From NCBI GenBank assembly GCA_963931925.1, contig OZ007569.1, positions 46,637,021 to 46,701,020 on the forward strand: a DNA stretch of 64,000 nucleotides, given 5' to 3'. The translations under genes and the position numbers were made by a program. Position 1 is the first letter of the stretch. Each line of letters begins with the position of its first letter. This document shows positions 1 to 52,200 of this stretch, in pieces. The notes below the pieces were generated by a model, which saw only the letters and a list, made by a program, of their open reading frames with translations, made no database searches and had not been told where the DNA came from. Source of the DNA: Onchidella celtica (Eukaryota; Mollusca; Gastropoda; Systellommatophora; Onchidiidae).

Positions 1-1900
1 AATCCCCCCGAGTTATTTTACATAGCCACCAAGGCCTCCAATATCCTTCGTAATGGCAAAGAAGATATGCTAACCTATGATCCCAACCAACCTCCCGCAC
101 TTAAACTAAACATATAGTAAATAGTAAAATGGCCTGGAACACACACACAGAGCGGAAAGTACGTCGCCCTCCCCAAGACTGTTAGATAGATGGATCACTT
201 ATCTTTATTTTTGAGGAATTCAGATGTTAATATCCTCAATCCATAGCTCCAAGCCCAAAACAGTATTTCTGTCTGAGGTAGAACTGGATGATGAAAGGGT
301 TCCCTCGCCGGTGTCCACGGGTCAATGGGATGTTGAGTTCACCATATGAAATTGAAATACAAAATATTAGATTAATACAAATTGCTTAAACTCTATAATA
401 AAAGACCTGAAAACATAATATTACAACAGTACAATATGAAATAATGGAATAAAAAAATACAATAGGTTTCAAAATAATCTAACTAAGTGGCATGGCGTTA
501 TTAAAGTTCTTTTAAGGGTCCCTCTCCAGTGTTACGAGGTGGGTCCTCGAGTGTTACGAGTTCAAAGAAGGGTGTTACAGATGGGGATTACTGTGCTCGT
601 GTTTTACGGGGATGGTTAATTATAAATTTACGTGTTCGACTGCATTTTTAATAAATATCGAGAGGTTTTAGAAATTACTCTGCCATACCATGCCACATAC
701 ACTAATAACAATTTCGAGTACGTTATATCAAGGACCTTGTAGGGCCACAAATTTATTACTTAAAATTCCTAACAATTTCGTCTATCGTTTACATATTAAA
801 AGACAACATTGCAGCATCAAATGAAAATACTAAAATACATAACTATAAATCTCCTCTAGATCCTTAAGAGATTTGAAACTCTATATCATTTTGATTCATA
901 CACAGTTTACTTAGTAATTATTCATCTTCAGAAATATAGACTGCCTACTACTTCACAAATAATATCCTTATGTCTCAGACGACAATATTAACTCATTTAA
1001 CTGCTTATAAAGGATCAAACCGTCAAGACACACTGACGTAGTTAAGATAGATCTAATCTAGATCTGTTCTAGGATGGGCTGGCAATCCCCAGCCTCATCC
1101 AGACACATCAATTACAATTTACAAATGTGTATATCAGTCACTCTTTCTAGATCTTAATTGCAAGTAAAACTTTATGGTCTTGCATCCCTTTGGTCGCACT
1201 TCTACTGGAAAGTTAGGGTCAGATTCACATCATCTCGAATCATTTTGATGAAACTTACGATTGGTTCCCTGAAACGATTTCAGGGAACTGGAGAAAATAG
1301 CTGTGGATTATTTTCATTGTCTATCCAGGACATAGACATGACTTAACAGTCTGTTGGTTCTCTCTGGCTGAACCGTATTAGCCGACGACCTTCATAGCTG
1401 GAAACTCTACATGGAAGTGAGGTAGCATAAAGATGCTCCCGCTTATCTTCTGCAACTCACGTGACTGCTCAAATTTGATTGGTGCATCCACTTCGAGCTC
1501 CGCTCGCAGCGCCAATAGATTCTATTAATAGTAACAGACAAAGTCAGACCTAGGATGTCAAAACCTTTCGCAAAGTCTCTACACCCTAAACGTTTTATGT
1601 ACGAATTTCTTCACTCCTTATTCGCCCCGTCTTTCCCTGTTAAGGTACACCCAAACCACGGGGTCGAAAACTGCATCGTCACTGTTAATTTATCCATTCG
1701 TTCTATCCTGACCCACTTTCTTTCCATCTCTAAGAAAAGCGTTACAAAAACAAACTGTCCACGGGAATAGTTCAAGGACGTTTGCACTGGCTAAAATCAA
1801 TGATGCCATGTAATAAACAATGCGTGACCTAGCACGGCAATTCAAATCCTAATCCTGACAGTACTTGTGATATTGAAAAAGAAATATTTAGTATAAACTG
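1..1900. other. Non-coding stretch, probably repeat-derived
   Basis: I see no convincing coding exon here. The sequence is AT-rich with some GC-richer patches (for example around 480-600 and 1,400-1,530). It contains short GATCTA-type simple sequence near 1,050-1,075 and one perfect 11-bp inverted repeat at 1,264-1,288. Open frames present are short and look random. It could be the intron or 5' flank of the gene whose last exon lies at 5,335, or old repeat DNA. Confidence 0.4.
1264..1288. repeat. Short perfect hairpin
   Basis: Arms GTTCCCTGAAA and TTTCAGGGAAC are separated by CGA. No run of T follows and no gene is adjacent, so the role is unknown. Confidence 0.6.
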
Positions 1901-1918
1901 TTTTGGAGACGAACAAAA

Positions 1919-4900
1919 CTTCAAGATGGCTGCAAAATTCAAGATGGCCACCATTGTGATTGTTTCTGAGTGTAGAAAAGTGGCCCGGATATTGACTATT
2001 TTATTATGCAGAAATATCTGACATTTTCACTCTTTTATGGTCTAATAAAGAAAAATAACTTTGCAGTCTTGGAGGGTGTTTCAGAGCAGAAGCAAAAAAA
2101 CACGGGAAAAGCCTGAAGTAGGAGTGCACTTTTTGCTGATCTTTTTCTTATGTGCCAATCGGTCTTTGGGCAAATTTTTCAAATACAGCCATCCACTACA
2201 TCCATCAGCAAAAACTGAAAACTATATAGAACCTCAGAAAGCAGACATTAACAACATATGTGCAGAGATCATAGAGAACAAACAATGTCAACCACAAACT
2301 AACTGATGCACTAATTATAGATGGCTCTGTTTTCGTTCGTCGTCTCCATGCAGTAGAAGTCACATTTCAAGAGTATTCAGAAATCAGTTTTTCCGAAAAA
2401 AAAAATGGATGTTCCTGCTTAGAGACATGCACAAGTTGACAAAATGTTTGATCAATACAAATCTGACAGTCTGAAAGCCTATGCAAGAAACCGAGAAGAG
2501 GTACTAGAAGGTGTAAAGTGACACCAACTGGAAGGGTCCGAAGAGCTGGTCCATATTTATTTACAAAATAATGACATCAAATCAGAATTATTTCCTCAGC
2601 TGGCTAACAGTATATATAACATACAAACTAAGAGTATATATAACATACAAAATGGCATTGTGTGGCAAGATATGAAAACAGTCAACAACAAGATAGCCAG
2701 GCAGACTACCCTTTGCACATATGAAAGGCCGATTAAAGAATATTTGTGCATCTGACACCTGCAATTGAATGCACCTGTTTTACAACTGCCTGTATTCCTT
2801 CAAATCACACAGACATAACAACTATTGCTGTGTCAGTTTTTACCGGCTTAAACTCAGCTGACTACAGCAACTTTGAGTCTCTTTTGACAAATCAAGAAAA
2901 GACAGCTGTCTATTAATGATCAAGCAAGAGGTCCTGTAGCATCAAAATGAAAAGTATTTTTCATTCATGCCCTCCACGGATGTGATACTGCGCCAGCCTT
3001 CAGAAAGAGAAGGAACATTTCTTTTCTTCAGATATGGAAAGACATGGAACATTCTTTCCAGATGCATCAGAATCGTTTGCCAAACTGAGCAGATTCCCAG
3101 TGAGTGTTGGTATTAACGACATTCGGAAGATAGAGAGATTGTAGAAAGGTTATACTATTTACATATGTTGATAATGCCATAAACGGTCTGTCACTCAGTT
3201 CAACATTTTGCCACCAACAAAAGCAGCCCTGATAGATAACATTCACAGAGCAGCGTACCCAGGAGGTGTTATGTCGGTCAAGCTCTTGACCAGAGCCTGT
3301 AACTACCCTTTGCCAGACCTTGCAATAGGATTTTCAAATCAGCTTGAAACATTTGTCAAAGACATGTGCAGAACATCTGCATTCTCATCATGACGGATAG
3401 GTGCATTCTCTTCTGAAATTGTGGAAACAGACACCTTGCCTGGAAGAATTCACCATTGCACAAGTCCACAGGCAACAAGGATGATGACCTCGACCCATTG
3501 GGACTGTGTTTTCGGTAGAAAACTTGCACTAGGTTGCAAGCAAAATAAGTAGCCTACCTTCAACACTGATCTGCTGGTTGTTCACATTTCCACCTTTTCA
3601 TCAATGGAGCGAGTTCCTTATTACGACAATGAAATCTTTAGAGAGGTTATCAATTTTCTTGGTGATGCTTTAAATGCCATTAACACATTAACTGAGAAAT
3701 TTATTGTCGGTACTTGGCCCACGAGTGGATGTTATATCCCTGGCCCTTTCTTGAAATCACACTAATGTATTCTCACAACTGCTGATGTCAACTCTGTTTT
3801 GCCAAATATTCTGTGTGTTTGTACATTGTGGATTGAACCAAAAAAAAAAAGGGAAGGGGAGCGCTTTTTTGCAAATTTTTAAGATTTTATACTTTGGAGA
3901 TGGGGGGTAAAAGCACAAGATTTCAATTATTGAAAACTTTATAACTAAAATGTGTTTATGATAAGGAATGGACTTCAACTGAAACAGTTGTCGGCCTTCC
4001 TTTGTAACATTCCCACTCTATGCGGTTTTAGAACAGGGCCAGTGATACAATGATGTGTTTTCCTGCTAGAGCCAGTTTTCTTCTTGTTTGGGTTATTTCA
4101 ATGAAAAAAAATTGACCAAATGCCATGCCACAGACTGTCGTTATGGTGCATGGCATGTCTGCCAGAGAGACTCTTCTTGACATGGTCAGGATGAAAACAT
4201 TGCCTGAAACTTAGGTAATACAGTCCGTAACTGCAAGCAAATGAGGTGGCCAGTCATCTTCTCTATCTGTCCATATGAACGCCACCATGATAAATGCAGT
4301 CTCAGTCAGGCAGTTTACTCAAGATTGTGTCATTCGTTGACATTCTTTTTTTTATCACTTTGAATTTGGTTGAGGTCTGCCACCATGTACACTCTGGTCG
4401 AAATGGGAAGTGCTGGTCTCAAGAAATCCTGAACGACTAATTTCAGTTCCCAGGTCGTTGCAAGTTGGTCAGTTAGTTCATCGCTGTTAATATTGTGCCT
4501 CCCTCAGAATTTCCCAAGTTGGAATCGTATTGGGCGCTCATGTCCTAAGGAGTATCGATATTCAAAAATTATGTTGTGACGTCATAAGGGGCAATTTCAA
4601 AGGATCGCTGGATAGACTCAGTATCCAGAGTGCCCAGCATCGGTGCCATCTAAGGCTTTGCTCAGGCCTTGGTAGCAAAACATCTCCACCTCGTGTAAAA
4701 AATGCTCTACTGGCATCATGTGGCCTCAAACAGAATTAAAGTCAGTGACCATCTAAGTATTCAAATCAGCAATTAAATTTTTCATATATATACTGAAACA
4801 AAGGCTGGACACCTTTACATAGAAATCTCACTTGGACAATGTTTGTGGTTAGTTGTTTCTTAAATTATATTGATATTGAATGAAACAGGCTTGATAAGGA

Positions 4901-5439: not shown

Positions 5440-7021
5440 CTTCAATTTTTAAATATTTTTTTTGGTCTTCATTTTTTTTTTTTTAAAGTTATCAGCATCC
5501 TTGTAGCTTTACCATGTTTTAATGTCTGTATACAGTGGGTGAAAATGGTCAACAGTCCTCTGTACATGTAAAAGTGAAGGTTAGCATTAACAGAACAGTA
5601 AAAGTAACAAATTCAAATTTCCAGCAGTTTCATCAAGTTACCACATTTAGTGTTTTTTTGGTCAGTGTTAGTTGTCTTGCCTTGCTTATTTCTTCTATAT
5701 GTGTAAACTTGTAACGTAAAACATGCAAGGCTTTGCATTAGTAGTAAACACTGCTTCATATCTTAATGAAATCAGTGGAATGAACAACACAGAATATCTT
5801 ATAAGAATTCTGAAATTTCTTTTCTCTTTCCACATTGTTTGAACCATCACTATCATAAGCATGAGAGCAAGCTGAAGACATTCAATCAGATCATTTAATT
5901 TCTCCATCTTTTCATTTTTAAATTGTCCATGGGAGTGTTGGCTTTTTCATTCATGGAGTTAACTGCTTGGTTCTGACAAAATATTTGATGTTCAAGGGCA
6001 GATTTTTATCTAGCACATGCCAATATAGAACTGTTTTGCAGCTAAGGACAAAAACAGAGTAACAGAACAAAAATATCTTCCAGCAAGCGGATTAGTTGGA
6101 CACATGCCATCGTTGTCAAACGTTGATAATAAAAACAATTGTACTTGTACCAACTAGATGACATTGTAATATCAACTGGACCTTCTCTATTGTCCTGCTG
6201 CACAGCAAAAGAACAGTGTGATAGAGAGTAGCCAACAATTTCGCTATGACAACCCAGTCTTTTCCTTGGCATTCATCAAACTTGTCAGAGCAAAGCAACA
6301 GTCTACATATACATGTACTTTAAATCAAGTATCATATTTTGTTGATGAGCCTGATGTGTGAAAATGGTGTGTGCATGGCCATGGAATGTGTTATCAGAAA
6401 CTGCCATTGGAAATTAGTAACTCTATTGACTCAATTCTTGGTACCTGAAGGAGGAGGCTTAAATATTGAACTTTACATTAAGACAAGTATCTAACAAGAG
6501 CACGAAAGTCATTACCGGTATACCACATCTTGTATCGAATTTGTGCATACATGTTTTGTATATCTTATGGGGAGTTTCTTGTGATTAGTTCCTTTTCATA
6601 TATTTTTTATCTAGAAATTGTTTATCATTGACAGGATGTTGACACATATTGTTGGTTTTGATATTTTCATGTGTACATTTTTGCTCTGAAATTTAAATAC
6701 AACAATTGCTTTTTTCCTATAGGATCTAGATCTAGTCATTTTGGTCTTCTTCTTTGCCAAGACATAATAAACAGTGCTTATGTTTTAAATTCTTTTATGG
6801 ACACAAAAGTCTGTGTATGCTTGTATTCAGCTTGTGGCCCCGATTGTTTTGTGATCATGTTGTTAAATTTGGACACTGCCCATAAAAATGGCAAGAGGTG
6901 CATCCTTTGTGTGAATCTCCTTAGCTTTGTCCAGAAAATTTTCAGGCACATGCACAGAATTGAAATAACTGTTTCAGAAAGATTTATCCCGTGGACATGT
7001 CTTCTTGAGAGTCAGACTTAA

Positions 7022-12500: not shown

Positions 12501-14694
12501 AAACAAAACAAAACACTTCTGTTTCAAGCTGTTCACTGTTGTCAGTAATGTCACCATTAGACTTAGGTATTAATAATATATGAAGCAATTTTGCACACAA
12601 GTACACATGTAATATTTTCTTACATCAAGATCAATGAAAATTTGAGTATGTCACATAACTCAGGTTTTTATTGAATTTATCTTCTCCTTACGTTGATAGT
12701 TTTCATTATATATCCCCCTGTGTAATCATCTTGTCATTATCACCAGTTAACACTTTTTCAGGTGTAAATTAAATGTTGAAGAAGGCAGTGGTATCCTCAG
12801 TTACTGCTTTCTTATCCAGTACGTCCTAGTCCTAGGATAATGATTCCAGGATATGTTTTCATAATTTAGTTTCCCTGTAATAATGCTGACATCTTGCTGT
12901 TCTAAACTCATAAATAAAATTGTGTTCATCCTTGGCAGTAGTCAGCTTGACCAGTAGTGTGGGCAAGTTTGAATATTTTTGTATTATGTGCACGGCTTGT
13001 CATTTAAAATACATTATTAGGAACTGTCAATCATTCAGTTCTTGTTAGAATTGGCGTCCTTTAAATGTAAAATTTTGATGCTAGGTACCGAGTTGGACAG
13101 TACAGGATTTGACAATTTCATTCATGAACTGCAGTGTACTGTGAAAGCAGTGATGAAACCACAGACAGAAAAGATTTAATTACATTGAACATGTAGCATG
13201 GATTGAAGCACTGATTAAAAAAATGTAAAGGAAATTTATAATAGTGGGGCATTTTATGTGGCCTGTAGCAAATACATGTACATGTATTTAAAAAGTTTAA
13301 AATTTATGGGCCCATATATTCATTTACATACAGCCCTGCGCTTTTGATGTGGTAACAGCTGATTTTGAACTTCTTCGAGTGTGATGTAGCTATAATGTCA
13401 AGAAACCTGTGGAACTGAACATTCCCAAACGTTAATTTTTATTTTTTTTTGTAGTTGGTTCCAAGGGGTGACTCCAAAGTACTTGGATATCAGTGGCTTT
13501 TTCCCATCCCTCTACGAACTCTTATTTTATTAAGTCCTGTGATCCATATTAACCATGGGTTAGTTCATTAATTCTGTCAAGTTCTTTCACTGATCCCATT
13601 TTACCTTCATGTACATCCTGAAATTAATAAGTAAATAAGTGCATACATGTATAAGTATGAAATTGGCATATTTTTTTGAAAATGACTGCACAAAGCCTTA
13701 AAAGGCGAGTTCACATTTGATTGTACTTGCTACTAAAACACTCTGGTAGCTCTGTGCGTTATTAGGCTTCTACTAGTGATGCTGTTTCTAATTCTGTCAG
13801 CCATGGTGATGGTGGGCAAGAATTTAATGAAGTCATTATTTGGATTTTTGTTTGAAAATTCTGAGATTTCTCAACTTTACTCAAGTAAATCATTTTCATG
13901 CTATTTGCTTGCAGTGCGTGTGCTTATTGAAATAAATGTCTTCGAATGAACGTTTTGCTTGACACCATTTACGTTTTTGTTTTACTTAATTTAAATTAAT
14001 GTCATGTATTTATTGTAAAAACAAATGTTAGTGTACTGTAATGTATTGCTTGCCTGGGTCTGCACTGAATAGAACTAAATGAAGTAAAGTACATGTAATC
14101 TGAAGCTTTTATGTTCGGATATACTTGATATAGTCATTCCCTCAAGTACCAAGGGATCTAACCATGCGGATATCATTTTGGAGTAATCCGGGTTCACCAA
14201 CATTAAGCAGTTTTGAAAAGGCTTTTGTTGAATCCTGATTATTTATTAAATTTGGTCATTCATGATCCACTGGCTGTTGTTGCTTTTCATTATTGTATGA
14301 TTTGTCTGTAGCTATTCAGTGTTCACTGATTGTGTGTCAACTGTTAGTTTCTAAAAAGACTTGATAGATAAAATGCCAATAGTGTAAATCTCAAGTCTGT
14401 GGAAATTTCCAGCAAAACAAATTTGTTTGGATAGCTAAGTTCGCTTATGTGATAACTAATTTTGGCTCACAAAATAACTTTCAAAAAGTAAAAAAAAAGC
14501 GTGTCAGTTTGTGCAACCGTGACACAAACATACATGTATTAATTTCTGTCACAATAGTGAGGCAGATATGTGAATGGTGCATTTGGTGCGTGCACTTCTG
14601 GAAAGAAGCATGAAACTTACATATGTTATGTTTATGGGTGTTCAAATCCACCAGACACCCGGCTCTCTCTGACGGTTCCCCCCGTAAAATCCAA

Positions 14695-15180
14695 GATGGC
14701 CACCATAAAATGCTCATTTTTACATAACATGACTTTTGGTCATCCTATTTCAATAATTTTGGTGTCTGTTCCTATGTTTTCGGGGTCAACAAATTCAAAT
14801 ATGACATGTTTAATGCTCTAAATAAAATATTTTTATAAAAATAGTACAAATCATCATAAAATCCAAGATCACCGCCGTAAAATACTGTTTTATATAACTT
14901 GACTTCTAGTCATCCTATCTGAAAAAAATTGATGTCTATACCTATGTTTTTGGGGTTAACAAATCCAACTATGTCACTTATTTCACTTTAAATTATTTTC
15001 TAAAATAAAAACTGTAAAAGCTTAATGAAATTCAAGATGGCCGCCATTAAATTGAATGTGTTGAAATACTAAGTTTTATATAACCCGACTTCTAATCATC
15101 CTAGTTGAATAATTTTGATGACTATACCTATATTTATGGTGTCAATAAATTCTCATACGACACCTGTTTTGCTTTAAATT
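14695..15180. repeat. Three degenerate subterminal repeats, about 165 bp each
   Basis: Units start near 14,690, 14,860 and 15,030. Each opens with AAATCCAAGATGGCCGCC-like sequence. Each is followed by a TTTTATATAACTTGACTT-like part, then CATCCTA, GATGTCTATACCTATGTTT and GGGGTCAACAAATTC-like parts. The first unit is part of the left inverted repeat. The right end (17,650-17,770) carries only one unit inverted. Subterminal repeats of this kind often bind a transposase; that role is inference here. Confidence 0.65.
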
Positions 15181-15606
15181 AAGGTTTTTTTTAAAAGTGA
15201 AATCATGAAAAAGATAATGAAATGAGATATGAATGCCAAGAAATTTATTTATTTAGTACCCCCCAAAAAAGTTTCTTTACATAGCTATTGTTGCAGATAC
15301 AATTTTTCACATGTTACTTGTACTTAAAATTAATTAAAACGTATATACAAAAAAGAACATCCACTGACTAAATTAGAACTGTATAACCAGATATGTGCAT
15401 CAAATATTGTACTACAAGTGAGGGGATGAAAATCAAAAGCTTCTAAATTACTTTTATTTAGGGAAAATGTGACATTTCCAATAATAATATCAACAGTTCT
15501 GTCACATTTTCACTCCACAAAAAGTCACTTAGGAGCTTTTGATTTTCACCTCTTCATGTAATGTATTGTAAAATACATGTATAAACAGCAGAGTTCTGAA
15601 GTCAGT

Positions 15607-17719
15607 TTACTCTCTATAACATTGTCCAGAACAAACACATAGTTGACTACATGGCAAATTTGCTTTAACACAGGAAGACCATCTCTTTATACAGGAAGTT
15701 TTGCAGCCACATTTGATAAGCTCCCTGCAAGCTTTAGATGCTTCAGGAAGATTAGTCCAGTATGGTGTCAATGAGGAGTCTCTTTCATTTCGCTTCCACC
15801 CCCAATCTTCTGGTGATGGAACAGTGGGATTAGCAGTGAGGGTCTGTCCCCAGATGAATCCTGCCAGGTATACAGCTCTTTTCACATGCTGCTCAAGAGC
15901 ATTCTTTGTAGGAGGTACATTTTCAATGGTGCGAAGTTGAGAGAACAACTGCTTGCGCAAATCATTTACACTGGTCAGTTCTGATGTTCTCTGGTAATGT
16001 AGAACAGTAAACCTTTCTCAGTAAACCTTTCTATCTGGTCAAACTGATGTGATGAAATACAATTTGGAGTTTGTGATATATCAGCAAACAGTTTGTGCAG
16101 GTGTGGCATGGAATTTAGGACACTCCAGGCTGTTTTCTTTCCTATTTCATGAAAAGCTGAACATACATCACACCCAGGAAGGGCATGAAAAAACAGTAGT
16201 CCCCTTGATGCATCAGTACCTAGACTAGAACTCAGAAGATGGCATGGTATATAACGAAGTTTGTTACCATGGCCAAATGCTACCCATGTTTCACAGTCTC
16301 TTAAGACACTTGATATTGCGACAGCAATAACAACCACATCAGTATCTGTTGCTTGTATAAGGATTTTCTTCAATCCTTTGTCATGGAGTTGTTTTGCATG
16401 AAATAGAAGACGAGTGTCTGCTTCCTCATGTGTACAATATAGTTCTGAATCATCAGTACATGCTATAGGTGATGACACCACTTTCTGTTCAAAGGTCGAG
16501 ATGACCTGTTTGTGTGAAGAGAATTGCAACTGCAAGAAGCTTTTTGTTTTTATCACAACGCAATAAGTTTTTCCAGTTTGCCGGCAGTTAAGTGTCCTTT
16601 TCTACTTTCATGTGTGTTCCAGATCCACGGTTTTGAAGTGTTTGTTCCTTCAGACTGTTCTCTCTGTATGTGTCCCAAACAACAACAAGGCGAAGTACTG
16701 GTTCTAACATTCTTTTAAAATGCTTGGAATAAATAAATAGTCTGCATAATCTTTGAATGTGGTGATAGGCTCCTTTGCATTTGACTTTTTGGGGTCAAGT
16801 GTCAAGGGAGTGCACAAGAGCAGCTCCATCAACTATTTTTGCATCAATAGCTGGTAGTGTCATGGGCAAAAAAATTATCCACGTCACTCTCCCTAGTTTG
16901 GCTTGCTATGTACAGCCTAGAAAAAAGGTTGACATCACTGTTTAAGTTGGATATTTTTGTAGCACACTTAGTACTTTTTTTTCTCTGAAGTTGAATTGAA
17001 CAAGGGAAGGTTGTTTTTTGGAATAGCATCAAAGAATGGTGTTGAGTTTCCATGAATACGCTCTGACACAAAGTTTTTGAATTGAGTTCTACCAGTCTTC
17101 AGCAGATTCTATAGAATTCTTCACAGTATCAGGCATGATTTGTTTTGTATCAAGAGTATAATTCTTTGCTTGTGTCACAAAATGGGTTACCCGCTTCTTC
17201 AAACTCCCTGCACAGGTTTTTAACATCACTAGCGAATCTCTTTTGAACACTTGGTATCTGTTCATGATGCCCCTCTTCAAAGCTAGTTTTTGTGTCATGC
17301 TTGTCACTGTAGTCTGATAGCAACCTAGCAGTCTCTGGTCCAGCAACCATCCACCGTCTCATCATTCCACCATCACCCTTCACCATAGGCATAGCATTCA
17401 GCTGTTCATGAACTTGATCATGTGCCATCGCTGAAAACCTTTTGTTTGTTTTCTGTGTTACAAAGTTGCCTTTAAGAAATTCTTCATGTGTATCTTTGCT
17501 GTTCTTCTCCAGTGCAAGCAGGTCAGTCACATGAACAGCCATCCATCGAGAATAATGGAAATAAGTGCAAACATCCATGGAACAATCTCCAGGAGTGATG
17601 GCACATATCATTGCATGAGGGTTCTTTTTATAATTTAAAGTAAAATAAGTGTTATATTTGAATTCGTTGACCCCAAAAACATAGGGATAGACACCAAAAT
17701 GATTGAAATAGGATGACAA
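15607..17719 (-). pseudogene. Transposon-borne protein with PIN/FEN-like nuclease motifs, broken
   Basis: Reading the minus strand from 17,719: a segment containing FHYSRWMAVHVTDLLALE and KRFSAMAHDQVHEQLNA; a stretch with stops (about 17,090-16,560) retaining IDAKIVDGAALVHSL and PANWKNLLRCDKN. Next comes a 193-codon open part (16,556-15,975) with CTHEEADTRLLFHAK, QATDTDVVVIAVAIS, FFHALPGCDVCSAF and EIGKKTAWSVL. It ends with a 117-codon part (15,960-15,607) with VPPTKNALEQHVKRA and a Cys-rich tail (CGCKTSC and CSQLCVCSGQC). Similar proteins of unknown function are common in mollusc and cnidarian genomes, from memory. The order E..D, D.D, GCD, then IG-K-A resembles PIN/FEN-XPG nucleases (inference). 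The N-terminus is missing or lies in the repeat, and stops show this copy is inactive. Confidence 0.6.
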
Positions 17720-17909
17720 AATCCATGTTATGTAAAAATGAGCATTTTATGGCGGCCATCTTGGATTTTTGGATTTTACGGGAGGAACCGTCAGAGATAG
17801 AGCCAGGTGTCTGGTGGATTTGAACTCGGCATACCAAAAAACACAACATATGAAAGTTTCATGCTTCTTTCCAGAAGTGCACGCACCATTCACATATCTA
17901 CCTCACTAC

Positions 17910-20718
17910 AAAGAATCAACTCGATACAAGCAAGCAGAAAAACATGAACAATTAAAAGTGTCATCACTTTCCTTTGCATGTGGATATACATTTATAAAAT
18001 AAATGTGGTTTGGGTAGTGATCCTTAAGCAACCTTTTAAGTTTGTTCATGATTTAATGCGCATGTACTTCAAGTGGCACAATCAGCAAATTTAAAAAATG
18101 AGGAGACTTAATACTTATTAAATGTTAAGCTTTTCTAATTCTCTCCTCCACCTTACAGCAGTGTTCATTCCAAGATGTCACTTGTCGGTGGAGGTTTATT
18201 GAAAACTGTGCATTGGCGTCATGTACATTTCTTTACTACATAAAATTTAAGAAAAGTTCATTTCCGATGTTACGTGCGATTTATCTTCTACCTTGTTCAG
18301 TCTTCACGGAAACTTTTTACTGCATGAAAGCTGGTACCAGTGAAAGAATTTAGCAATGCAATTAATGCTCAAGAAGACATGGAGGGATATATGAACAATG
18401 AAGTATGTGCACCACCTTGTGCATTGATACCAATAGATGTTTTGCTCCAGAAAATGAGATCCCAATAATCTAATCTGAGCATCCTGACAATGTGGTCGTC
18501 CTGTATTTCAAATAAAAACTCTCAACACTGGGCAAGTTTTTATGAAACTACATTGTATTTTGTTCATGGTCATGACACAACAAAAGGATATGACTCGTAA
18601 AATGGGGGGGGGGGGGGGGGGGGGGGAAGGGAATGAAATGAAAATTTAAAACAAACCTAAGAAATATAGAAACTAAGTGCTTTTTTCTTTTGACTTCCAT
18701 AAAACACTAAAATATCATAAGTCCATACTCACTGGAGTGTAATTTGAATGAAAGCAAGGCAAGAAGCTAATTTTCCTGGTCATGCATATTAAAAAATACA
18801 AGTCTACACAATCAGGGTAATATTGTTTACTAGGGCTAAGAAGAAAAAAAAATAAACGACGACAGCAGAGTTTGAAATTATAAAAAAAAAAGGTTATATT
18901 ATACTGACAAGCACCTAATTACATTATGTAAAATACAGGACAAGAATTTTGTGTAGCACTGACATGGACTACCATGGCCTTTAAAACAAAGACACATGTT
19001 TTGTGAACACATTTTGTTTTCAGCGTAGTATTTTGAAGCAATAAAGCAAAAGAAAATAAGATAAAACCTGCTTAAAACTTCAGAATGATTGCCATTTGAA
19101 CACTTATGTTCAGATTCTTTTGGTTTTGAGACATGTTGAAATGATATCTTTCGATAACAAGAACAGAATGATGACGTGTAGAAATGAAGATGATGTTTTG
19201 AACTAAGAATGAAATATGAATATGACTACTACAGTTTGTACAAGCAAATGTAACGACTAAAAACATGGGACATGGAACCAATTTTGATTATTTATACATG
19301 AAAACAAAGGATGATGAGTGAGGTTCTCAGTTCATAGTATCTTCTTGCTCATCCCACTTCACATCCAGCCGCGCATAAAACTGACATTACTGCATATGAA
19401 ACCTGTAATTAAGGACTCAAATATCTGAGACATCAAGGCTGAAACACGACAAGTTATTTTACAATGACATAGATATAAATGACCCTGATCCTGTCTTGAC
19501 TTAGACGGGTTTGAGCTTCTTTCTCAAGCTTTCCAACCCTAAAGCAAATCTTTCATGTGTACAAACATGTCTCAAGTATACTTAATGTCACTGATGGTCC
19601 ACCTCATAAATCTTCAATAAAACAAAGTGACAATTATGAAGCTTTCAGATTAACTAAAAATAAAAGACATTTTGCCTAACTGGAGCCATGAAATGATCCT
19701 TTAGTAAAAACTATTTATTGGCAACTAAATAAAAGTAGAGGATATTACAAATCTTGTAACAAAAAATTACATCACAAAAATACAACTAATTTTGGCAGCA
19801 ATAAAAAATGAAAGTTCAGTTTATAACTCTTGGAAAGAGAAAGTTGAGGTGAATGATTTCACATTTACATAGGATATAAAAACTTCGTAAAAATTGTACA
19901 CACATCAGATTAAAAGAAAAGAAAAAAAAAAAGAATAAGAAGAGCTGCCAATTTTGTAACATGCTATCTGCAATAGATGTGAGCACCATATATCATTGCA
20001 CAATGATGATATAAAAAAACAATGAAAGGTACTGCACATAATTTAGTAGCTGCTATGTTTTATACACATATAGGGAGGATCTTCTCTAAATTTCATAGTA
20101 AATAGTCTCTACAGTAAATCCCATGGGAAGTTTTGTCCAAAAATGTTCTTTAGTGCCACTGATAAACTGAATACAGCCGCATTTGATTTTCTGGGGTTTG
20201 GAGAGTCTTCAATGAAAATCTACCTACAAATTGAAATGGATTTCTTTATACAATTGTTATAATTACATACACTACAGCATTTTATGTTCACGGCTGGTTC
20301 TTGGGGTAACTGCACTTTTGTTTCTATTCTGAAGCAAACTGAAAGAATATCTAGTCAATAACAAAATCAGTAATTTTACAGTGTTTTGATTGCCATGCTG
20401 CCTAATGTTAACGGTTCTTTCAAAGTCTGCACACTTAAGTTACTCGAGGTCTTGAGAAAATAATGTAAAAATAACAATCACTTTGCTCTGACTTGATATG
20501 TGCTATTAAATAATAAATACTGAAATACATATCACTTCCCTCTGCCTTGAAATCAAATCCATTACAATAACAGTAACCTAATCTAAGAGAATGCGGGACC
20601 AGAACTGATGCACAAAAACATTCGGGTCACATACATGGTGCTTGCCTTCTTCCACCACACCATATTTCACTTGCCGCTAAATAGGAAAAACCTGTGCTAC
20701 ATTTAAACTTTCATTTAA
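17910..20718 (-). other. Probable 3' UTR of ENOPH1 and convergent intergenic DNA
   Basis: No coding exon was found. The plus strand is A-rich, so the minus strand is T-rich, as in the ENOPH1 introns, which fits a minus-strand transcript running on past the stop codon at 20,719. A minus-strand AATAAA occurs near 19,712. A 23-base G run lies at 18,604-18,626. The 3' end of the transcript cannot be fixed from sequence alone. Confidence 0.45.
18604..18626. repeat. Poly-G run of 23 bases
   Basis: An uninterrupted G tract on the plus strand, able in principle to form a G-quadruplex. Length may be uncertain, since homopolymers assemble poorly. Confidence 0.9.
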
Positions 20719-34991: not shown

Positions 34992-35030
<39 letters not shown>

Positions 35031-35039
35031 GACTGTCTG

Positions 35040-35098
<59 letters not shown>

Positions 35099-35152
35099 GT
35101 CTGTCTGTCTGTCTGGCTGTCTGCCTGCCTGTCTGTCTATATTTCTGTCTAT
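34991..35152. repeat. (TCTG)n(TCTA)n(TCTG)n microsatellite
   Basis: About 160 bp of tetranucleotide repeat: TCTG units, then about 14 TCTA units, then TCTG/CCTG units. Confidence 0.95.
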
Positions 35153-35799
35153 CATGTTTGTCATATACAGTAAATTACACATGGTAAGAAATCAGTTTTC
35201 CAACTTCTCAAGTTTTACATTTATATAAAATGTTTGTGTTCGACCTGCAGTCAGCATCAGAGTCAGGCTACTCAGAAACACTATAACCCACGTGTGCACA
35301 CCAAAATTCCCTTTAAGAAATACGAATTACCGGTACGTATGTTTATATAGGCCATATATTCTCCGTTTCAAAATCGCTTGTAAATGTGATACTTTTATGG
35401 CTTTGTTTCTTTCGATTGTTTACATTGTAATTTTAGTGCTTATGGTCACAATACGGGCGCCTGAAATACAGACCAACATGAAAAGTCAGTTTTCAGCATT
35501 ATTTGTACCGTGACTCACTCCTCCACAATCCATTGCCAGCATAATAATACGGTCAAGTGCGAAACCGAAAGTACGATATGCAACGCCCAGGAAATAGATG
35601 GCGCCTAACATAATTTTACATACATGTGCGAAGAAGAGTAATTTTCATAGCATCAAGTGAGGACTTGAGGCTATAATTTAAAAGACAGATGCAAAATTGC
35701 TCTGATATCAATACAGTTCATTGATGACAGCCAACAAGAATAGTGTTTATGTAATTTCTGTCAGCTCGTTTTTAATAATCAAGCTTTGATAGCTTTCAC

Positions 35800-36298: not shown

Positions 36299-36576
36299 TC
36301 TGTGCATGCATGGTTCAGGATACGCCGTCACAACTATGCGGAACAGTTGATGAAGTCTGCTTGTTTTCACCCATATCCGACTACAGCAAAGAATGAGTTA
36401 AGTTAATGGAATACGTTCACTGCTAAGGGGAGACATTGCAACTCTTTGTCATATTTGTGTGAACTTCGGTAGAAACTTTGAGTGCAATCATACTGACATT
36501 TAGATTTAGAATCTATGCCAGAGGAGCTGTTCCATTTTTCTATGACATTGTGTGCTAACTAGGACCAGTAAACAAA
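36299..36576 (+). other. Probable 5' UTR of the RRBP1-like gene
   Basis: It follows a good acceptor and runs to the initiation codon. It contains short upstream ATGs. The context at the start, AACAAAATGGAA, has A at position -3 and G at +4. Confidence 0.4.
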
Positions 36577-37255
36577 ATGGAAGTTCTTACTGCAATTTTA
36601 ATTGGAGTAATCGTTTTTATACTGTCAGCTCTGATAATTTATTGCAGTTCTGCCTTTTCTATGAGAGAAAAAACATTTGAAGAAGTCATAGCAGAACAGA
36701 AACGGCGTGAAGAGGAGGAAAGGGAGAAGGCTAAAGCAGAGAAAAAGGCTGAAAGAGAGCAGCTGAAGAAAAAATTTAAGAAAGGAAAGCATGATAAGGT
36801 GAAAGAAAAAGCAGCACAAGTCACTGAGCCAGAGCTTAAGGCTGAACACAAAATGGTCAACTTGGAAATTGAACCAGAGATTATTGAGCCAACTGAATCC
36901 CTGGGTCTCAGTGCTGGTGTGCGTCATAGAGGCAAGAAAGACAAGGCTGCTAAGTCCATACTGCAGAACAAGGGAGAACACACCCCAGTGGCAGAGAAAG
37001 CTGCAGAAATTCATCATAAGCCATTGGTACCCAAAGATGAGTTGGAACTGAAGAAGATACATGAGAAGGAAAAAGTGCAAGAGAAAGTTGTGGTGGTGGA
37101 AAAGATTGAGAAAGTGAAAACAATTCACACTGAGTCCCATGAGAAAGAATTGAAGTCTAAGCATTCAACTGATATAAAAGAAAATCTTCCACCATCAAAG
37201 AAAGTAGAGAAAGATGATGGAGACAAACGCTCAGGAAAAACAAAATCAACTTCAG
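36577..37255 (+). CDS. RRBP1/KTN1: RRBP1-like coding exon 1: membrane anchor and basic region
   Basis: Residues 1-226 plus one base. The hydrophobic segment ILIGVIVFILSALIIYC lies close to the N-terminus with no cleavable signal, as in p180 and kinectin. A basic, Glu/Lys-rich stretch follows. Donor GTGAGT. Confidence 0.95.
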
Positions 37256-40200
37256 GTGAGTGTGTGTCTGGACTTTCCTTCATTTTCTGAATACATTTTA
37301 CACTCTCAGCATCTCTTTTCCTTCTTGATGATGTATGTGACTTAACATAATCACATGTACTCAGCAGGAGTCAGCTGAATATATAATTTTTCTGTAGAGT
37401 TCAGCTGTATCTCTGGGAGGTCTTCTGGCTGCCTGCGCCATAATTTTCACCGCTATTAAGTAAAGCTCATGGTTACACATTGTCACTGTTATCAATTTAA
37501 ACTCATAACACATGGAATGGTCAGATGGATCTGGGGGTGTGAGGGTCTAGTTAGTTTGTATCAATGGGCGATAGTCAGATTGACTAATCAGGCGAAAAGG
37601 GGCTGGGGTAGTTGTGTTTTCTTGACTGGCGCGGACGGGCGGAAGACCTTCCGTATTTCTTTGCCATGATTTGAAAGAAAAATCAAAACAAGCAAATTGA
37701 GCGACTACAAAGACTGTATTTGTGGTTAATTAAAAACTAAGTGTAAGTCTGAAATATCTTATCATAGAATAAAGAAGGGGGAGGATGCGACTTTAGGAGC
37801 ATCCATGAATGGGGTTAGTGCTCTAAATGTTTGTTTTTTATATACAGGGCTTTGTGATTAATAATATTACACAGAACATGAGATACACCCTCTAAAATTT
37901 TGTAACTGATTTGGTGCTCCTTCCGTAAAGACTATGACTGGTGAGGTTAAGGACATGATTCATCTTGGCAGGCACATTGCTGTTTGTTTATATTCATGAA
38001 ATTGGATATTTTCAGAGACATTTGATCCAGGTTTAAATTCAGGTTAAAATAAGTATTTGTGGATTTTAATACCATTCTTCATCTCACAGAGGACGTCTCA
38101 CTCAATGGATCCAAACTGATCTCTTCAGTGAAAACAGCCAAACTATCAGATAATGAAGTCCAGACCCTTATTGATATTCTGCTTAATAGGCAAGGACTTA
38201 CTCCAACTGGCCCAGTTGCCTCTGAGTCGTGGAACAAGGTAAAGTTTTATTTAACACCAGGCGACAACGTGATCATTTTCATCACATAAAAACAATGCCG
38301 AATGTAGTAAGTCTCACAGAAGTCTCATGATGAAATGAAATAGAAAAGGATCTTTCCACCTCCACAGATCATTTCTTTGTTATTGCAGCTTTTAGTCATC
38401 ATACACCTTGGTAAGGTAAAACTTTGTTTGGCTAAAAATTCACTTCGTTTCTGTTCCAGGTCATTAGTAAAAATAAATATTTCTTTCATACTTTTGTGTA
38501 GATGCCATACTTTTTTTGTAGTAAGATGCCATTTTATGTTTTCTCAGATCAAGCAGATGGTTTAACTTAGTTTTACAGCTTCTCATAGCTTTTTGTTAAT
38601 TTACAGAAAAGCCAGAAAGGTGATCCTATGCTCCTATTGAAAAAGCAGCTTGAGGAAAAGGAAAAGGCCTTTCAGGAAGGTATATTTATACTTCTGTTGC
38701 ATTTATGCTGTTACATTGGTTAATATTTGAAAATAGTAGATGATGATAAACAGTTTGTTTAATGTTCTTGATGTGTGGAAAGTATCTTTACTAGCACTAT
38801 AATTGTTAGTGGTGAAAGGGTTTCAACCACCAAGGCTATTTTTTTCTGATGATAGAGTAAACTTCTTGGCAGATGTTACACAAGCCTATAATGGAATGCA
38901 AATTACATGGCTTGTATCCAAGTTAATCAACATATTTATTGATCTGTATGGGTTACAGAAGTAAAAGACTGACACAAGTACTGAACATAAAATTTATGTA
39001 GTTATGCAATGTATTGTTGACCCTCAGTTAAAAAGTTGGATGTGCCATTTTGTGGAGAGGAGGAGTGTATTCAGTGAGATTTTAATGAAAGTTTGGCTTT
39101 ATGCCAGTCATTTGTTATTTGATTTTTCATATTTAGAGCAAAACATGGCAATGACTGCTAACACTCGGGTTAGGGAGCTGAAGAATGAGTTGATGGCAGA
39201 GAAAAACAAGTACACTTCTTTGGAGAAGAGATATCAGGAGAAAATTGGACAGCAGCAAGCAGAAATGGATGCCTTGCAGCAACGCATGCAACACACCCAT
39301 GACCAACATCTTCACGAGACCAGCAACCTGCAGGCCAGGGTCAGGCAGCTTGAGCAAGGAGGAGATCGTGCCACTGCGCACAAACTGACTGAAGTAAGCA
39401 TAACATGGTGGGATCTACATGTCTGTCAGTAGTTTGCAAGCAGATGGGAAAATAAGTTTACATATTAACCTGGTGAACAGGCATTGTGTCCAATGCAAAA
39501 TTAATTCCAAGACAGGTTTTGTGTGTGTGTGTGTTCAGATTAGAATGAATTTGCCTTGACTTACTTGACTTAAACCCTTGAACCCCGAGTGGGGCATAGG
39601 TCATCTACCAAGGTCCTCCACCTTGCTCTGTCCTGGGCTGCGGCTTCAATCTGGCCCCACGAGAGTCCCAGCATTTTTGCCTCACTTGTAGTTGATCTTT
39701 GCCATGTTGTCTTGGGACGCCCGCGGTTTCGTTTCCCTTGTGGGTTCCATTTGAGGGCCTGGCAAACGATGCTGCCTTGGGGTTTTCGGAGCATATGTCC
39801 AAGCCACCCCCACTTTCTCCGTTTGATTTGCGTTTCCACTGGCTCTTGCTCTGACCGTTCCCACAGCCATTCGTTGGTGACTTTGTTGTGCCAGCTGATC
39901 CGCAGGATGGTTCTGAGGCACCTGTTGGTGGTCTGCAGCTTGTGTGTTGACCCTTCGGTAGTACGCCAGGTTTCACATACGTATAACAGCACAGACTTTA
40001 CATTGGTGTTAAAAATCCTGATCTTGGTGGACTGGCTGATAAGCTGGGATGAATTTGCATTACAAAACCTTAAAAATATTGATGTAAGAAAAGATCAATC
40101 TCATTTTATACAGTGGTGAAGATGTTCTCTGATAATGAAGTGATTGTGCAATTTTTCCTTTGAAGAGGAAGGATAAATTAGAAAAGACATGCCACCAGTC

Positions 40201-46200: not shown

Positions 46201-49200
46201 TGATTCAGATTTTTTCTTGGCTTGATTCAGATTTTTGTCTTTTATCGGGTGGCATCTCTGAAGTGGGATTGGCAGAGATCCTGCAGGACTTCATGGGGGG
46301 GGGGGGGGGGGGGGGCTAGTCTGGATATTGGAAACTGAACAAAGAAGAAGAAAAATACAAGGAATCAGTAATGAAAGATACTTTGTCTTTGAGTTTCGGA
46401 GTTTCTTCTTGTTTGCAATATATTTTTGTTTCTTTCTTTGATGAGTAAATGACCACAGATGGCCTATTTGTGTCAGCTATCTATTATCAGATTCAAACCT
46501 GTGTGAGTAATACTGTTTCATTTACTTCCACAGGAATCTGAACGTAGACGTTCTGACTTGGAAGGAAATGTTAGGAACTTGGAGAAACAGCTGGCTGATC
46601 TGTCACAGCGTTTAGGTGAAAGTGAGACGGAAACTATGGTAAGCTGTGGTGTGCTGTCCTTCAAGCTGGAGTGGCTGTTTCTAACAATATCATTCATTGT
46701 GTGGTACGAAATCTTAGGTAGCTGTGCTCTGCTTTTGTGACAGTAACAAAAAAAAAAAAAAAAAATGAATGTCAAGACAGTAATGCTGTGAAATTTTGTT
46801 TTTTCAATTTTATGGTTTAGAGATTTGATAGAGAGCATAGACTTACTTTTTTAAATAGTTTCTGTCAGTTTTTGTTCTTTATTTCTTGGGTGTCTAACTT
46901 CTTTTAAATCATAAACCTGTGAAATTCATTGGTACCTCCTGTAGGGGTTTCAACAAGTCAACACAGCCCACCAGATCAGTTGGTTGGATGTCAACAAAAT
47001 TTAGATGTTTTATGTATTTTCTGGCCCTATTAAAATATCCAAAGTCCAAATAACATAATGCAACATTTGTGAAAATTTGATGTTGCTGCAGCGATTATTT
47101 GTTTGAGTGGACACTGGATAACTCATTTCTTATTTGATTTTTTTGTTTGTTTTGTTTTGGTCAGAGTCAAGGACTACTGTATGAAAGGACGCGCACGACC
47201 GATCTTTTGACATCGCTAGCGAAGGCCATTTGATTATTGACACCTACAGCCTTATTATGACACCTAAGACTAACCAATTGTAACCAATGTTGCATCCAAA
47301 CATAATCTCATTAAATAAAGCAGTTTTACCACAGTTAATGACGATACCATACAGTAGAACCTCTGGCATAAGACCTCAGTATGTAATAACACATGCAATT
47401 TGACCTTGAAATCAACCTTTTCTATTTGATTTTTTTTAACCACCTTAATTATAGCCCATTCCATGAATCAGGACCATTTCTGCAGTCTTATAGCAATGGT
47501 TCCTCTGTATACAGAAACGAAAAATAACTCACCATGTTGCAGCCCAAATTAGTCAGCGAGCTGTGCCTTCTTGATGGAGGTCTGGTACAGAGCTGAATTT
47601 CTTTGCTGGTCCTTTTCCAAATTATGAATCCCATGCAGAAGAACATTTATTTTGCCAGGCGTCGCAGCAGATGTTTAGAAAATAATCCAAAACCATAGTA
47701 GGTGTTCATGGTGAGAAGAATGTTGACAAGTCTTTGACGGCAGCATGCTTTATGTTTGGATTTCTTCACAAAGCACAAACCAGTCCTTACGAACTCATAT
47801 GTGCACACATGTGGGACAGTCAAACAACCCCTTGAAACTTCTTGGATGAAGTCTTTTACTTAGCTTGACAATAAACACTTCAGCAAGTGAACTGAATCGT
47901 ACAACAAATACCAAGCTCGCTGATCATTCAAAGGATGTACAGTCTCAAAGTCAGTTCTTGTGAATAATTTGCAGTATTGCTGATTGATTTTATGATTGTC
48001 AGTCATGGACCCTAAAACAATCCCACCTGTCTTCTCAACAACAGCAGCAGCTTTCTTGACAACAGTGAATTGGTAGGCAGCTGTTAGGTTGTGAACAGGG
48101 GTAACAGATACCATAACACTAGGTCCACCATGCAAACATTTCACCATGACACATAACATAGAGCTTGCCTTGGAGTCTGGGTCATTTTTTGACATGCCAT
48201 TGAGAACACCCCCCTGAAAAGGCGACTCGTTGGCGAGTTTTCACTTCATCGACTAACAAAAAACAATGTTTCTGCTGAGCATTCTTTGCTTTCTGAAATG
48301 TTTTCTCCAGTACTTGGTCAACATCTGTAGAAGAGATCATAGACTGCAGCTTTCGTCTACTTGGGAGAACAAGAAAGTCACGCAGTTGATGGTAATTACA
48401 GTGAGGGAAAGATTAAATTGCAAAGCAATAATCTGCCACCGAGAATGCCCTGTCATATATGAGTTGAAGCTGTCTTGTAAGAAATTTGAGTTTCTTGCCT
48501 TTGGCAGCTTCAAGCGACTCTTAGGCTTGAACTTGTTGAAGAGTCGTTGCCACTTTTTTAACAACACCATCCACAGGAAGGTCATAGTTAATCGCTGAGT
48601 GCACAGCCTCAAAGAATTATGTGTAGGATGACAGACCAGTGTTTGGACTTAAGATTTTACCCAAAGGCACGTTAATCCCATTCTTGAAAGCAGAAAGAGT
48701 AAGAGGTGAACACAAAGTAGATTTGTTGTGAACAATTATTGACAAGAAACTCTCTCTGTAATCTTTCACCATGAAAATACACACAAATTTGTCTTCTGGA
48801 CGAGATATGAGAAGATTTTCATACTTTTTTAACAACTCTTTGTCAGGAGAAAACGAAGTGATTCTGTCTTTCTTGATGAAATAGTTCAGCTGTTGATCCT
48901 CAGCTTTAGGCTCGTGTGGTGCTGGTTTTGGTGTTGGCAAACAAGAAGAAGGAACATTAAAAATACTTGGTGGCAACACAGGCCGAATATGTCCACCTGG
49001 TATCTTGACCATAGGTGTATCCGCTGGCCAATGTCTCTCACATATAAAAAATTTTGTTGGGTCGACAACGAAATCCTCACATTGGGGGAGAACGTTCAAC
49101 CATTTCTGTTTTTCTTGTTTGTCTTTAGGTAGTTTAAACACACGGCAGTTGTTAGATTCGTTGTAGTTGCCTTTGCAGTTCACAACACCACACTTGTTTG

Positions 49201-52200
49201 GCATTTTGAAAGAATATAAATCCCACAACTTGCAAAAAATATCCCCCAGTATCACATTGTTTCACATGTCTGTTTCAATGTTTATATTTTCCCACACAAC
49301 CAAAGCACTTGTTACGATAACGTAAACATCCGGGAGAAAAAGAGTGCAAGCTTTCTGCACTAAATCTAGGCCTAAAAATAAAAGTTTTGGCGTGTTGGAT
49401 ATTCACTAAGTAAATTAATGCCAACAAATCGTATGGAAAATGTGTTTACTTACTTAATTGACATAAACTTCATCGCATCTTATTAGTCTAGATTACTACG
49501 CTAAAGCGCACTATTACGTTCGGTCTAAAAATAGACTATTCATCAGAAACTGGGTCAATGCAATGGCTTTCGTGCGCGTCCTTTCATACAGTAGTCCTTG
49601 GTCAGAGTATATAAGTGAAATGTTGGCACATTTCTGATTTCTTTCCCTCACTAAACATATTGCCAGTGTCAGCCACTTTACATTACCTTAGATTATCATG
49701 AGGGAAGTTTTTAACTGAATTTGTGTTTAAATCTGCATTTTTAAAATTCTTATTCAGCGCCTGCTGCAAGAAAATAAAACATTGTCTGATGAAAACAAAA
49801 CCATGAATGATAGACTTCAGTCTGCTCCTGCCTCAAATGGTGACATTCATGAAAATGGACCCACAGTCTCTTTAGCTGAGCATGAGCGCCTGTAAGTTTT
49901 GTTAAGTGGAAGTTGAAAATTTGATTTTTTGACTTAGAATTTTTTTGTCAAAGAAAATGAAATGACTCCTTTGCAAATTATACTGACCATTCCAAAATAT
50001 GGCTTGTGAGTTAATTTTCATAATAATTGATACTTTTCTGTGTATTTTCATGTGGTAAAATGTTATTCTTCAAAAAATGAATGTGATATTCTGATTCATA
50101 AATATGAGTTAGAAAGACTGAAAGTAAAATAAGTCCTTTGACTCAAACAGAGTGATTAGTTCACAGATAAATTTTGCTTGACTGTCATACTTGTATGGTT
50201 CCTCACATTTAAATGTAAATGAAAGAGTGGCAGCCATTTTCCTCATTAAACCTGTCTTAAAACTGAAAGCACCAAAACAGCCTGCCAAAAGCCTTTGTTT
50301 AATAATCACATGAAATGACATGTCCACCACAGCCTATCAGAAAAGAGCTCTGAGGTCAATGAACTGACCAGCAATGTGGAGAGCCAGAAAAAGACCCTGT
50401 CTACCCTGCAGGCTGAGCTGGACACAAAGGATGCACAAGTGGCTGATCTCCAACAGCAACTTACACAGCAGAAGGCTAAAAACAATGTAAGTCTAGGGAT
50501 ACAGATCATGGCTGAGAGGGATAGATGGACATTGATCTCTGTTGCCATATTTCCATCATGTTTCTATGTTTGGAAAAAGACAGTTCTGGTAAGGGAATAA
50601 AATTAATGAGATTCTATTCAAATTTAAGCTTCAGTTTTTCACTGTAAATTACCATTAGTAATCAAAATTTATTTCTGAGTGAAAACAGAACGAATGGTGG
50701 TAAAATGGCAACAGAGTCTGCTTGGGAGTCTCAGTAGTGGGTTTGGTTTTTCGAAGTCCTTCATAGGACGCGTTACAATAAAATAATCAGCAATTTGAAT
50801 GTAAATTTATGTATTTGTGAAATGCTAGAACAGGTAATTCTCAGTACCAAAGCATTTTGAGCATCCTTGTACACAAATTGCTGGATTTTACATTTTATCT
50901 TTGCCAATTTGGTAAGTATTCCAAAACAAACTTTTGATTAAAAAAAAAAAAAAAAGTGACAAAAAGCAAAAATATTTAATTTTGCAAATGTTTAAAGAGT
51001 ATGTTTAGTGGACTGTATATACAGAATCGCTACACAATACTTCCTCTTATTTTTTTTATCTAATTTTCGTCCACTAAAAATACCTGTCAGCACTGCTGGT
51101 TTTAGGAGGTAGCTTGCATCCCCATATATTTTTGTGTTTATTGTAGAGGATTGCCAGTAACCTTTTTCACCAGATTTCTTGCCTCTGGATAAAGCAACTT
51201 GGCAACATATATTAATCTCTTCTTTTGCGTATCATATTGGATTGTTTTATTACTGATCTTGGCAAGCTGAACATTTTCCGGGATTTTATTTGTGGAGATT
51301 AGTATAGCTTGGAAAGATACAGGAAAATGGGACAAAGAAGCAAGAAAAGAAGTCAGGAATTGGAGGTTTTGGTTTCTGAACAGGCCTTGAAAAATTGGTG
51401 GTCATAAAATGCAATTAAAATTTAAGCCTGTTGTTCAAGTTAAAATCATAACTAACATGTGACAATGGAACAGTTTTTTGAAATCAGCACTTGTGTTGTA
51501 AAAGAATTATGAACCTTTGCTTCCTGTCATTAATTTGATGGGACAGAAGAACTTCGTTGTATTTGACATGTCTGACAAACTCTAGAATACTGTTAATACT
51601 GTCTGCCTGGCAAAACCACCACCATGTTGGAGGAGATTGTGAAAGAGCGAGACATTTGCCAGAATGGCCCAGTAGAGCCAAGTCTGTTTTTTTTAGCTAT
51701 TAGTATATGACCTGGATATATTTTGTTTAGGTTTGGGGGCTGATGAATTAAATTATCCAGTGTTTGTATTTCACCTACTGTTATATTTACACCTTTCTGA
51801 TACTTATAAAGTCTGTGATCTAGTACTTTTCTGTTAACAACCTTCTGAGACTTATTTATACATAATAAAGTTTCTGAAGTTCAGTCCATCATTGTTCCTC
51901 TTTGTCAAAAATCTCCCAACAGAGATGGTACATCAGTGCCATTAGTCATTAAGGTGATCTTAGTTATCTACTGTCAGTTGTTCATGTGAGAAGGAAAGAA
52001 AAGAAAGAGAACCCATCTTTTTCTTTGTGTCATGGAGAATGCACACAAATCCTTCAGTATTTCTCTTAAAAGTAATGATTAGTTTTGGGAAAGTGAAATT
52101 TGTGAAAACATGGTTATGTTTATTGTTGTAAGTTTGAATATTTCTTTACTTTTGAAAAATAATTGTCATTCATCACATCAGATTAATATTGTTAGAGCTG

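Follow-up and report, generated by a model that had tools for sequence, protein, structure and literature searches.

Can a DNA transposon be driven by a nuclease of the FEN/XPG type, without a DDE transposase? This question is raised by a 64,000-nucleotide stretch of the genome of the gastropod Onchidella celtica (GenBank assembly GCA_963931925.1, contig OZ007569.1, positions 46,637,021 to 46,701,020 of the forward strand), hereafter called the window. An initial annotation, made from the letters of this stretch, had proposed that it holds a mobile element bounded by inverted repeats, that the protein of this element is a FEN-like nuclease and not a DDE transposase, and that the element might therefore represent an undescribed class. 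We arrive at a different answer. The feature is very probably a degenerate, non-autonomous internal-deletion copy of a cut-and-paste DNA transposon of the AcademX type (Academ superfamily), an assignment that is set by published descriptions of such elements and not by sequence comparison. AcademX fits because the family combines a nuclease and a DDE-like region with terminal inverted repeats (TIRs), a 3-bp target-site duplication (TSD) and a length of about 6 kb.

The element occupies positions 14555-17908 of the window (3,354 bp) with its coding strand on the minus strand, as delimited by its TIRs, by comparison of its ends with those of other copies and by its TSD. The TIR arms are approximately 270 bp long: positions 14555-14823 (plus strand, starting TAGTGAGG) pair with positions 17633-17908 (minus strand, finishing CCTCACTA) at 84-96% complementarity. 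A scan of the full window for inverted repeats of at least 80 bases (seed 14) returned two pairs, both of which lie within this element. A genome search with the leading 242 bases of the left TIR listed 48 matching places. The trinucleotide CAA abuts the element on either side, and comparison of the flanks identifies these triplets (14552-14554 and 17909-17911) as its TSD. The initial annotation had recommended aligning copies to fix the ends and the duplication, and its claim of a mobile element with inverted repeats is borne out by the outcome.

An exact 3-bp TSD is present in nine of the 11 copies for which both ends can be read (CAA, TAC, TCG, CTG, GAC, TCA, CTC, GTA and TAA), and the other two copies agree at two of the three bases. 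In no copy is the exact match longer. When the left flank of one copy was instead paired with the right flank of another, a 3-bp match occurred in 2 of 110 pairings. The 11 copies comprise the window element, five of the loci L009-L016 (seven other loci with a complete nuclease core, described below, and one partial neighbour) and five copies from separately fetched end pieces. The count leaves out the end pairs C3:52500 and C17:19742, which lack terminal sequence at one or both ends, as well as L009, L011 and L016, in which one end is absent or falls in a gap of N. For L014, whose TIR finishes CTCATTA rather than CTCACTA, the right end was set by hand from 6723 to 6726 after the flank had been seen.

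These duplications bear on whether the element could instead belong to another known superfamily, for example Kolobok or hAT, that has captured a nuclease. Kolobok elements duplicate TTAA and hAT elements duplicate 8 bp, whereas the TSD of the window family is 3 bp of varied sequence. It is true that various nucleases occur in Kolobok lineages, but those listed in the available portion of PMC9587614 are not of the FEN type. We therefore regard such a capture as very improbable.

Other structural details of the family were noted alongside its ends. Two window-family TIRs lie 12 kb apart at G000:C1:196202-208251 with a matching TAA duplication, and this locus is probably a copy that other sequences have since entered. 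The left part of the window element holds three copies of a subterminal unit of approximately 170 bp (14685-15196), the first unit overlapping the TIR, and these units could possibly serve as extra binding sites. Just past the coding remnant, at window positions 15419-15556, there is a 37-nucleotide inverted repeat with 64 nucleotides between its arms. Related nuclease families (L026 and L027, and L019, L021 and L023) carry long inverted repeats with flanks that are common to several copies. Because these flanks are shared, the true ends of those families may be located outside the aligned repeats.

Further information comes from copies other than the one in the window. We searched the source genome (1.14 Gb in 43 contigs) with a 115-amino-acid core of the nuclease as the query. 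Among the best 150 of 371 candidates, which were those scored, at least eight loci, the window included, span the entire core at 91-100%. Among L009-L016, the copy L013 is 6,009 bp long and is flanked by a TCG duplication, and blastn reveals that its positions 993-3506 (approximately 2.5 kb) are absent from the window copy. The blastn blocks against L013 meet at element positions 3053/3054, which places the internal deletion junction at window positions 17607-17608. The copies L010, L012 and L014 break near element position 2937/3077, unlike the window copy, and given this difference these short copies are probably separate deletion derivatives. A second long copy measures 6,198 bp between its TIRs (C18:25626851-25633048). 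When a 494-amino-acid piece of the L013-specific region was used as a query, and the best 87 of 340 candidates were scored, an identity of at least 91% was found only in L013 itself and at C18:25630004-25631640, where the match falls into three pieces. Of the other places, the one ranked next by E-value stands at 48%.

Beyond the source genome, no relatives were found in a viral contig collection scanned with A1, L028, L026, A2 and A3, in a genome contig collection scanned with A1, or in a phage collection searched by tblastn with L028. Two host exons were also used as queries. The first, which we take to be from the XPG gene of the source genome, had no match in the plasmid and phage collections. 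The second matches FEN1 chains, for which reason it was taken as the FEN1 of the source genome, and it had no match in the genome contig collection.

The coding sequence of the window copy is not intact. Its minus strand holds at least four open pieces, interrupted by a TAA and several frameshifts. As the initial annotation had described, the motifs HEEADTRLLFHA, TDTDVVVIAV, HALPGCDVCSAF and EIGKKTAWSVL occur in that order, all within a single 208-amino-acid minus-strand frame (15975-16601). This frame is the longest open piece of a candidate FEN-like nuclease region (minus strand, 15978-16845; D...D...EEAD...DTD...GCD) that is identified by the acids conserved in the family and by the hhalign comparison of the family with FEN1 and EXO1. 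The strand corresponding to that of FEN1 D86 lies upstream in a different frame, past a frameshift and the TAA, and the strand corresponding to that of D34 lies past two more frame changes. Preceding the nuclease is a linker (SDVNLFSRLYIASQTR...DNFFAH; minus strand, 16844-17098) that was recognized by alignment with relatives. Further upstream, comparison with L013 and relatives reveals a remnant of the DDE-like region (minus strand, 17150-17746), the start of which overlaps the right TIR. This remnant retains HYSRW and HDQVHEQ, the latter including the putative last E, and the window copy has lost the stretch that holds both putative D residues.

The cysteine-rich tail reported in the initial annotation is indeed present, although it sits in another minus-strand frame (15607-16017), with the cysteine cluster at 15619-15714. 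The Pfam model TCR (Tesmin/TSO1-like CXC) matches the protein of L009 with an E-value of 0.0011 and this window frame with 0.046, both below the curated cut-off; the best match reaches 19.7 bits against a cut-off of 23.5. The corresponding E-values are 0.037 in L010 and 0.59 in L026, and L024 has no match. The tail cysteines have a CXC-like spacing, and the tail may bind DNA or the element ends.

To evaluate the nuclease we relied on an alignment of 13 rows (A3), all from the source genome, in which L013, and not the broken window copy, stands for the window family. Eight rows come from L013-L028, and five were chosen from ten further relatives that qualified by motif. The motif pattern is retained in 10 of the 14 relatives fetched, the remaining four (L040, L041, L042 and L044) having no qualifying frame. 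Counterparts of D34, D86, E158, E160, D179, D181 and D233 of human FEN1, which we take to be its catalytic acids, are all present in order. Of the rows that have a residue at the position in question, the D34-like acid is found in 8 of 8, the D86-like acid in 12 of 12 and the other five in 13 of 13 (the E160 counterpart being D). The spacing of the acids is 43/91/2/24/2/57 in A3 versus 52/72/2/19/2/52 in human FEN1.

Comparison of profiles provides a second line of evidence. With hhalign, A3 matches a FEN1+EXO1 profile with 92.1% probability (E-value 6e-7) over 202 columns, and EXO1 alone with 92.4%. The hhalign score of 55.7 compares with at most 25.7 across 200 shuffles, of which 100 column shuffles of FEN1+EXO1 gave probabilities no higher than 1.4%, while the highest among 100 shuffles of EXO1 was 3.5%. 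The probability did not exceed 1.0% with five unrelated proteins or 0.2% with the reversed profile, and the DDE-like region gave 0.2% against FEN1+EXO1. Weak matches to the FEN superfamily were also obtained from sequence libraries, including EXO1 chains (E-value 0.03), Pfam 5_3_exonuc (0.0097) and XRN_N (0.017), each in 1 of 13 members, and NCBIfam Xni (0.013, 2 of 10 members) and PolA (0.046, 1 of 10). At the level of profile and residues, a FEN/XPG-like identity of the nuclease region is thus well supported. The earlier proposal of a FEN/XPG-like protein stands in this respect, with seven acids and a 92% profile match accompanied by clean controls, but the protein of the window copy is not intact and is spread over its four or more pieces.

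The claim that the element has no DDE transposase fares less well. The 2.5 kb that distinguishes L013 contains the frames 1034-2101 and 2005-3588, which represent approximately 850 codons and precede those of the nuclease, although L013 is itself frame-broken. In relatives, this upstream region carries in order a DNIDHN-like motif, TVDQPLYALAKxIQW, GGLHxE and DQAHEQ. In L013, it presents a series of D, D, GxxH and E, with GxxH where others have [C/D]xxH. The first D is kept in the five rows that align there in a second alignment (A5), which covers the upstream region alone. Identity between families in A5 is 42-49% (one row from the same family is at 99%), and the DQP, GxxHxE and HQ positions are invariant. 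From this pattern, we infer that the upstream region is DDE transposase-like.

More distant families retain long frames, including one of 1,392 amino acids at positions 1174-5349 of L017 that contains both regions, one of 1,089 amino acids at positions 4194-7460 of L019, and frames of 405 and 1,066 amino acids in L020. Given these frames, it is likely that full-length members encode a single protein of approximately 1,400-1,500 amino acids. This protein would appear to consist of an N-terminal part, the DDE-like region, the FEN/XPG-like nuclease and the cysteine-rich CXC-like tail. The initial annotation had named a separate DDE transposase in full copies as evidence that would overturn its view. 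Full copies probably do encode such a transposase, but apparently in the same polypeptide as the nuclease.

Several observations weigh against the composite protein and the class assignment that we favour. The rows of A3 were found with queries that hold the motifs, some of them with an EEAD-like pattern, so the invariance of the EEAD motif is partly a product of construction; L039, which is outside A3, carries V in place of the leading D of DTD. The probability with hhalign is 7.4% against FEN1 alone and 0.5% against Escherichia coli PolA. However, single sequences are insensitive in this comparison, because the true relatives PolA and FEN1+EXO1 give 2.5%. Among the library matches, the unrelated apolipoprotein A-I (E-value 0.022) ranks just above EXO1 (0.03), and the unrelated families XXXCH (0.016, 2 of 10 members), TacA1 (0.028, 2 of 10) and GldN (0.088, 2 of 13) are similar in strength to the superfamily matches. 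No Pfam nuclease model reached its cut-off in the scanned family proteins, where XPG_N and XPG_I did not rise above their curated cut-offs. When the window protein was folded alone, without an alignment, the predicted local distance difference test score was 32, a value that says nothing either way about a FEN/PIN fold. In the upstream region, the putative last E is K in L021, A5 had no match in the PDB or Pfam, and the sole Pfam family to touch the region is DUF6589, which has no assigned function (best E-value 0.0011, below the cut-off; 3 of 10 longer members matched). Finally, both long copies of the window family are frame-broken or matched in pieces only, and a TSD was found at the repeat ends of none of seven relatives.

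Some of these points would suit a transposon that is driven by the FEN-like nuclease alone, with an upstream region that binds DNA or has a structural, non-catalytic role. The family keeps the acids of the nuclease, no search recognized the upstream region as a transposase, and L021 has the K just mentioned. We nonetheless consider this arrangement highly improbable. A short TSD of fixed length is the usual outcome of DDE transposition. The upstream region is also conserved between families, with its invariant positions and with D, D, GxxH and E in the order known from DDE transposases. Furthermore, Academ counts as a DDE/D superfamily in the literature (PMC10294476 and PMC9587614, in the portions available). 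Least probable, to the point of being barely credible, is a chance resemblance in which the motifs are merely FEN1-like and the domain has another fold, since the silence of the Pfam XPG models and the mixing of weak library matches with unrelated families are offset by an hhalign score far above those of 200 shuffles and by acids in FEN1 order at similar spacing.

If the full-length protein is built as we propose, its parts could share the work of transposition. The tail and the N-terminal part would bind the TIRs, and the DDE-like region would cut the 3' ends and join them to target strands at positions 3 bp apart. Repair of this 3-bp stagger would then produce the 3-bp duplication. Either during excision or while the ends are repaired, the FEN-like nuclease might trim or cut the other strand or a flap. 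Itself incapable of these steps, the window copy was presumably moved in trans by a full-length copy and decayed thereafter. It is also conceivable, although we judge it unlikely, that the transposase has two engines, such that the FEN-like nuclease, rather than being accessory, is responsible at each end for one of the two strand cuts, thereby sets the 3-bp stagger and shares the work with the DDE-like part. TnsA and TnsB of Tn7 offer an analogy for shared cutting of this kind.

The idea of a FEN transposon without a DDE component would be corrected by the DDE-like upstream region of L013. What the locus provides in its place is a bounded family, with 11 copies mapped at both ends and relatives with long frames, in which the role of a flap-type nuclease within a transposase can be studied. 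We know of no bench test of an AcademX nuclease, although the literature was not searched specifically for one.

Other features of the window are apart from this element. A 243-amino-acid plus-strand frame (36559-37290) is hydrophobic at its start and includes a stretch rich in Lys and Glu, and we presume that it resembles an RRBP1/kinectin-like gene. Two minus-strand frames were also noted, one of 214 amino acids (48617-49261) with a C2CH start that we take to be THAP-like, and one of 174 amino acids (39570-40094) that presumably resembles a C-terminal fragment of a reverse transcriptase from a long interspersed nuclear element. A TCTG/TCTA microsatellite occupies positions 34992-35162, where a 4-base unit is repeated 42.5 times.

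How, then, does the window family compare with known systems? The nuclease of AcademX is of the XPG type. With AcademX as published (Kapitonov and Jurka 2010; Kojima 2020) and as relayed in the available portions of PMC4455052, which cites the 2010 paper as the original report of Academ, and PMC10045372, the window family shares TIRs, a nuclease, a 3-bp TSD, a length of approximately 6 kb and, putatively, a DDE-like region. The suggestion that the element represents an undescribed class consequently gives way, in that a nuclease and a TSD of 3 or 4 bp are already on record for AcademX (PMC10045372). The window copy differs in being a 3.35-kb deletion derivative, and the likeness is one of description rather than of comparison with Repbase sequences. 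The full lengths in the window family (6,009 bp for L013 and 6,198 bp for the C18 copy) compare with a mean of 5,565 bp for Academ in bivalves, as given in the available text of PMC10294476, which treats Academ as a DDE/D superfamily; the accessible part of PMC9587614 likewise lists it among those that encode a DDD/E transposase.

AcademH is placed in the same superfamily but has a helicase and TSDs of 9 or 10 bp, and the part of PMC10045372 that is available relates the difference in TSD length between the two groups to the encoded nuclease or helicase. We ruled AcademH out, given the 3-bp TSD and nuclease of the window family and a lack of any helicase family among the Pfam matches of the scanned family proteins. 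KolobokE, KolobokP and KolobokD resemble the proposed full-length element in being DDE transposons with an added nuclease, but the types reported in the available portion of PMC9587614 are lambda-exonuclease-like, DEDDh and His-Me, none of them FEN. FEN1, EXO1 and XPG themselves share with the family the seven ordered acids and the profile match over 202 columns. The transposon nuclease differs in having no match to a Pfam XPG model above the cut-off, and it appears to be embedded in a larger transposon protein that ends in a CXC-like tail.

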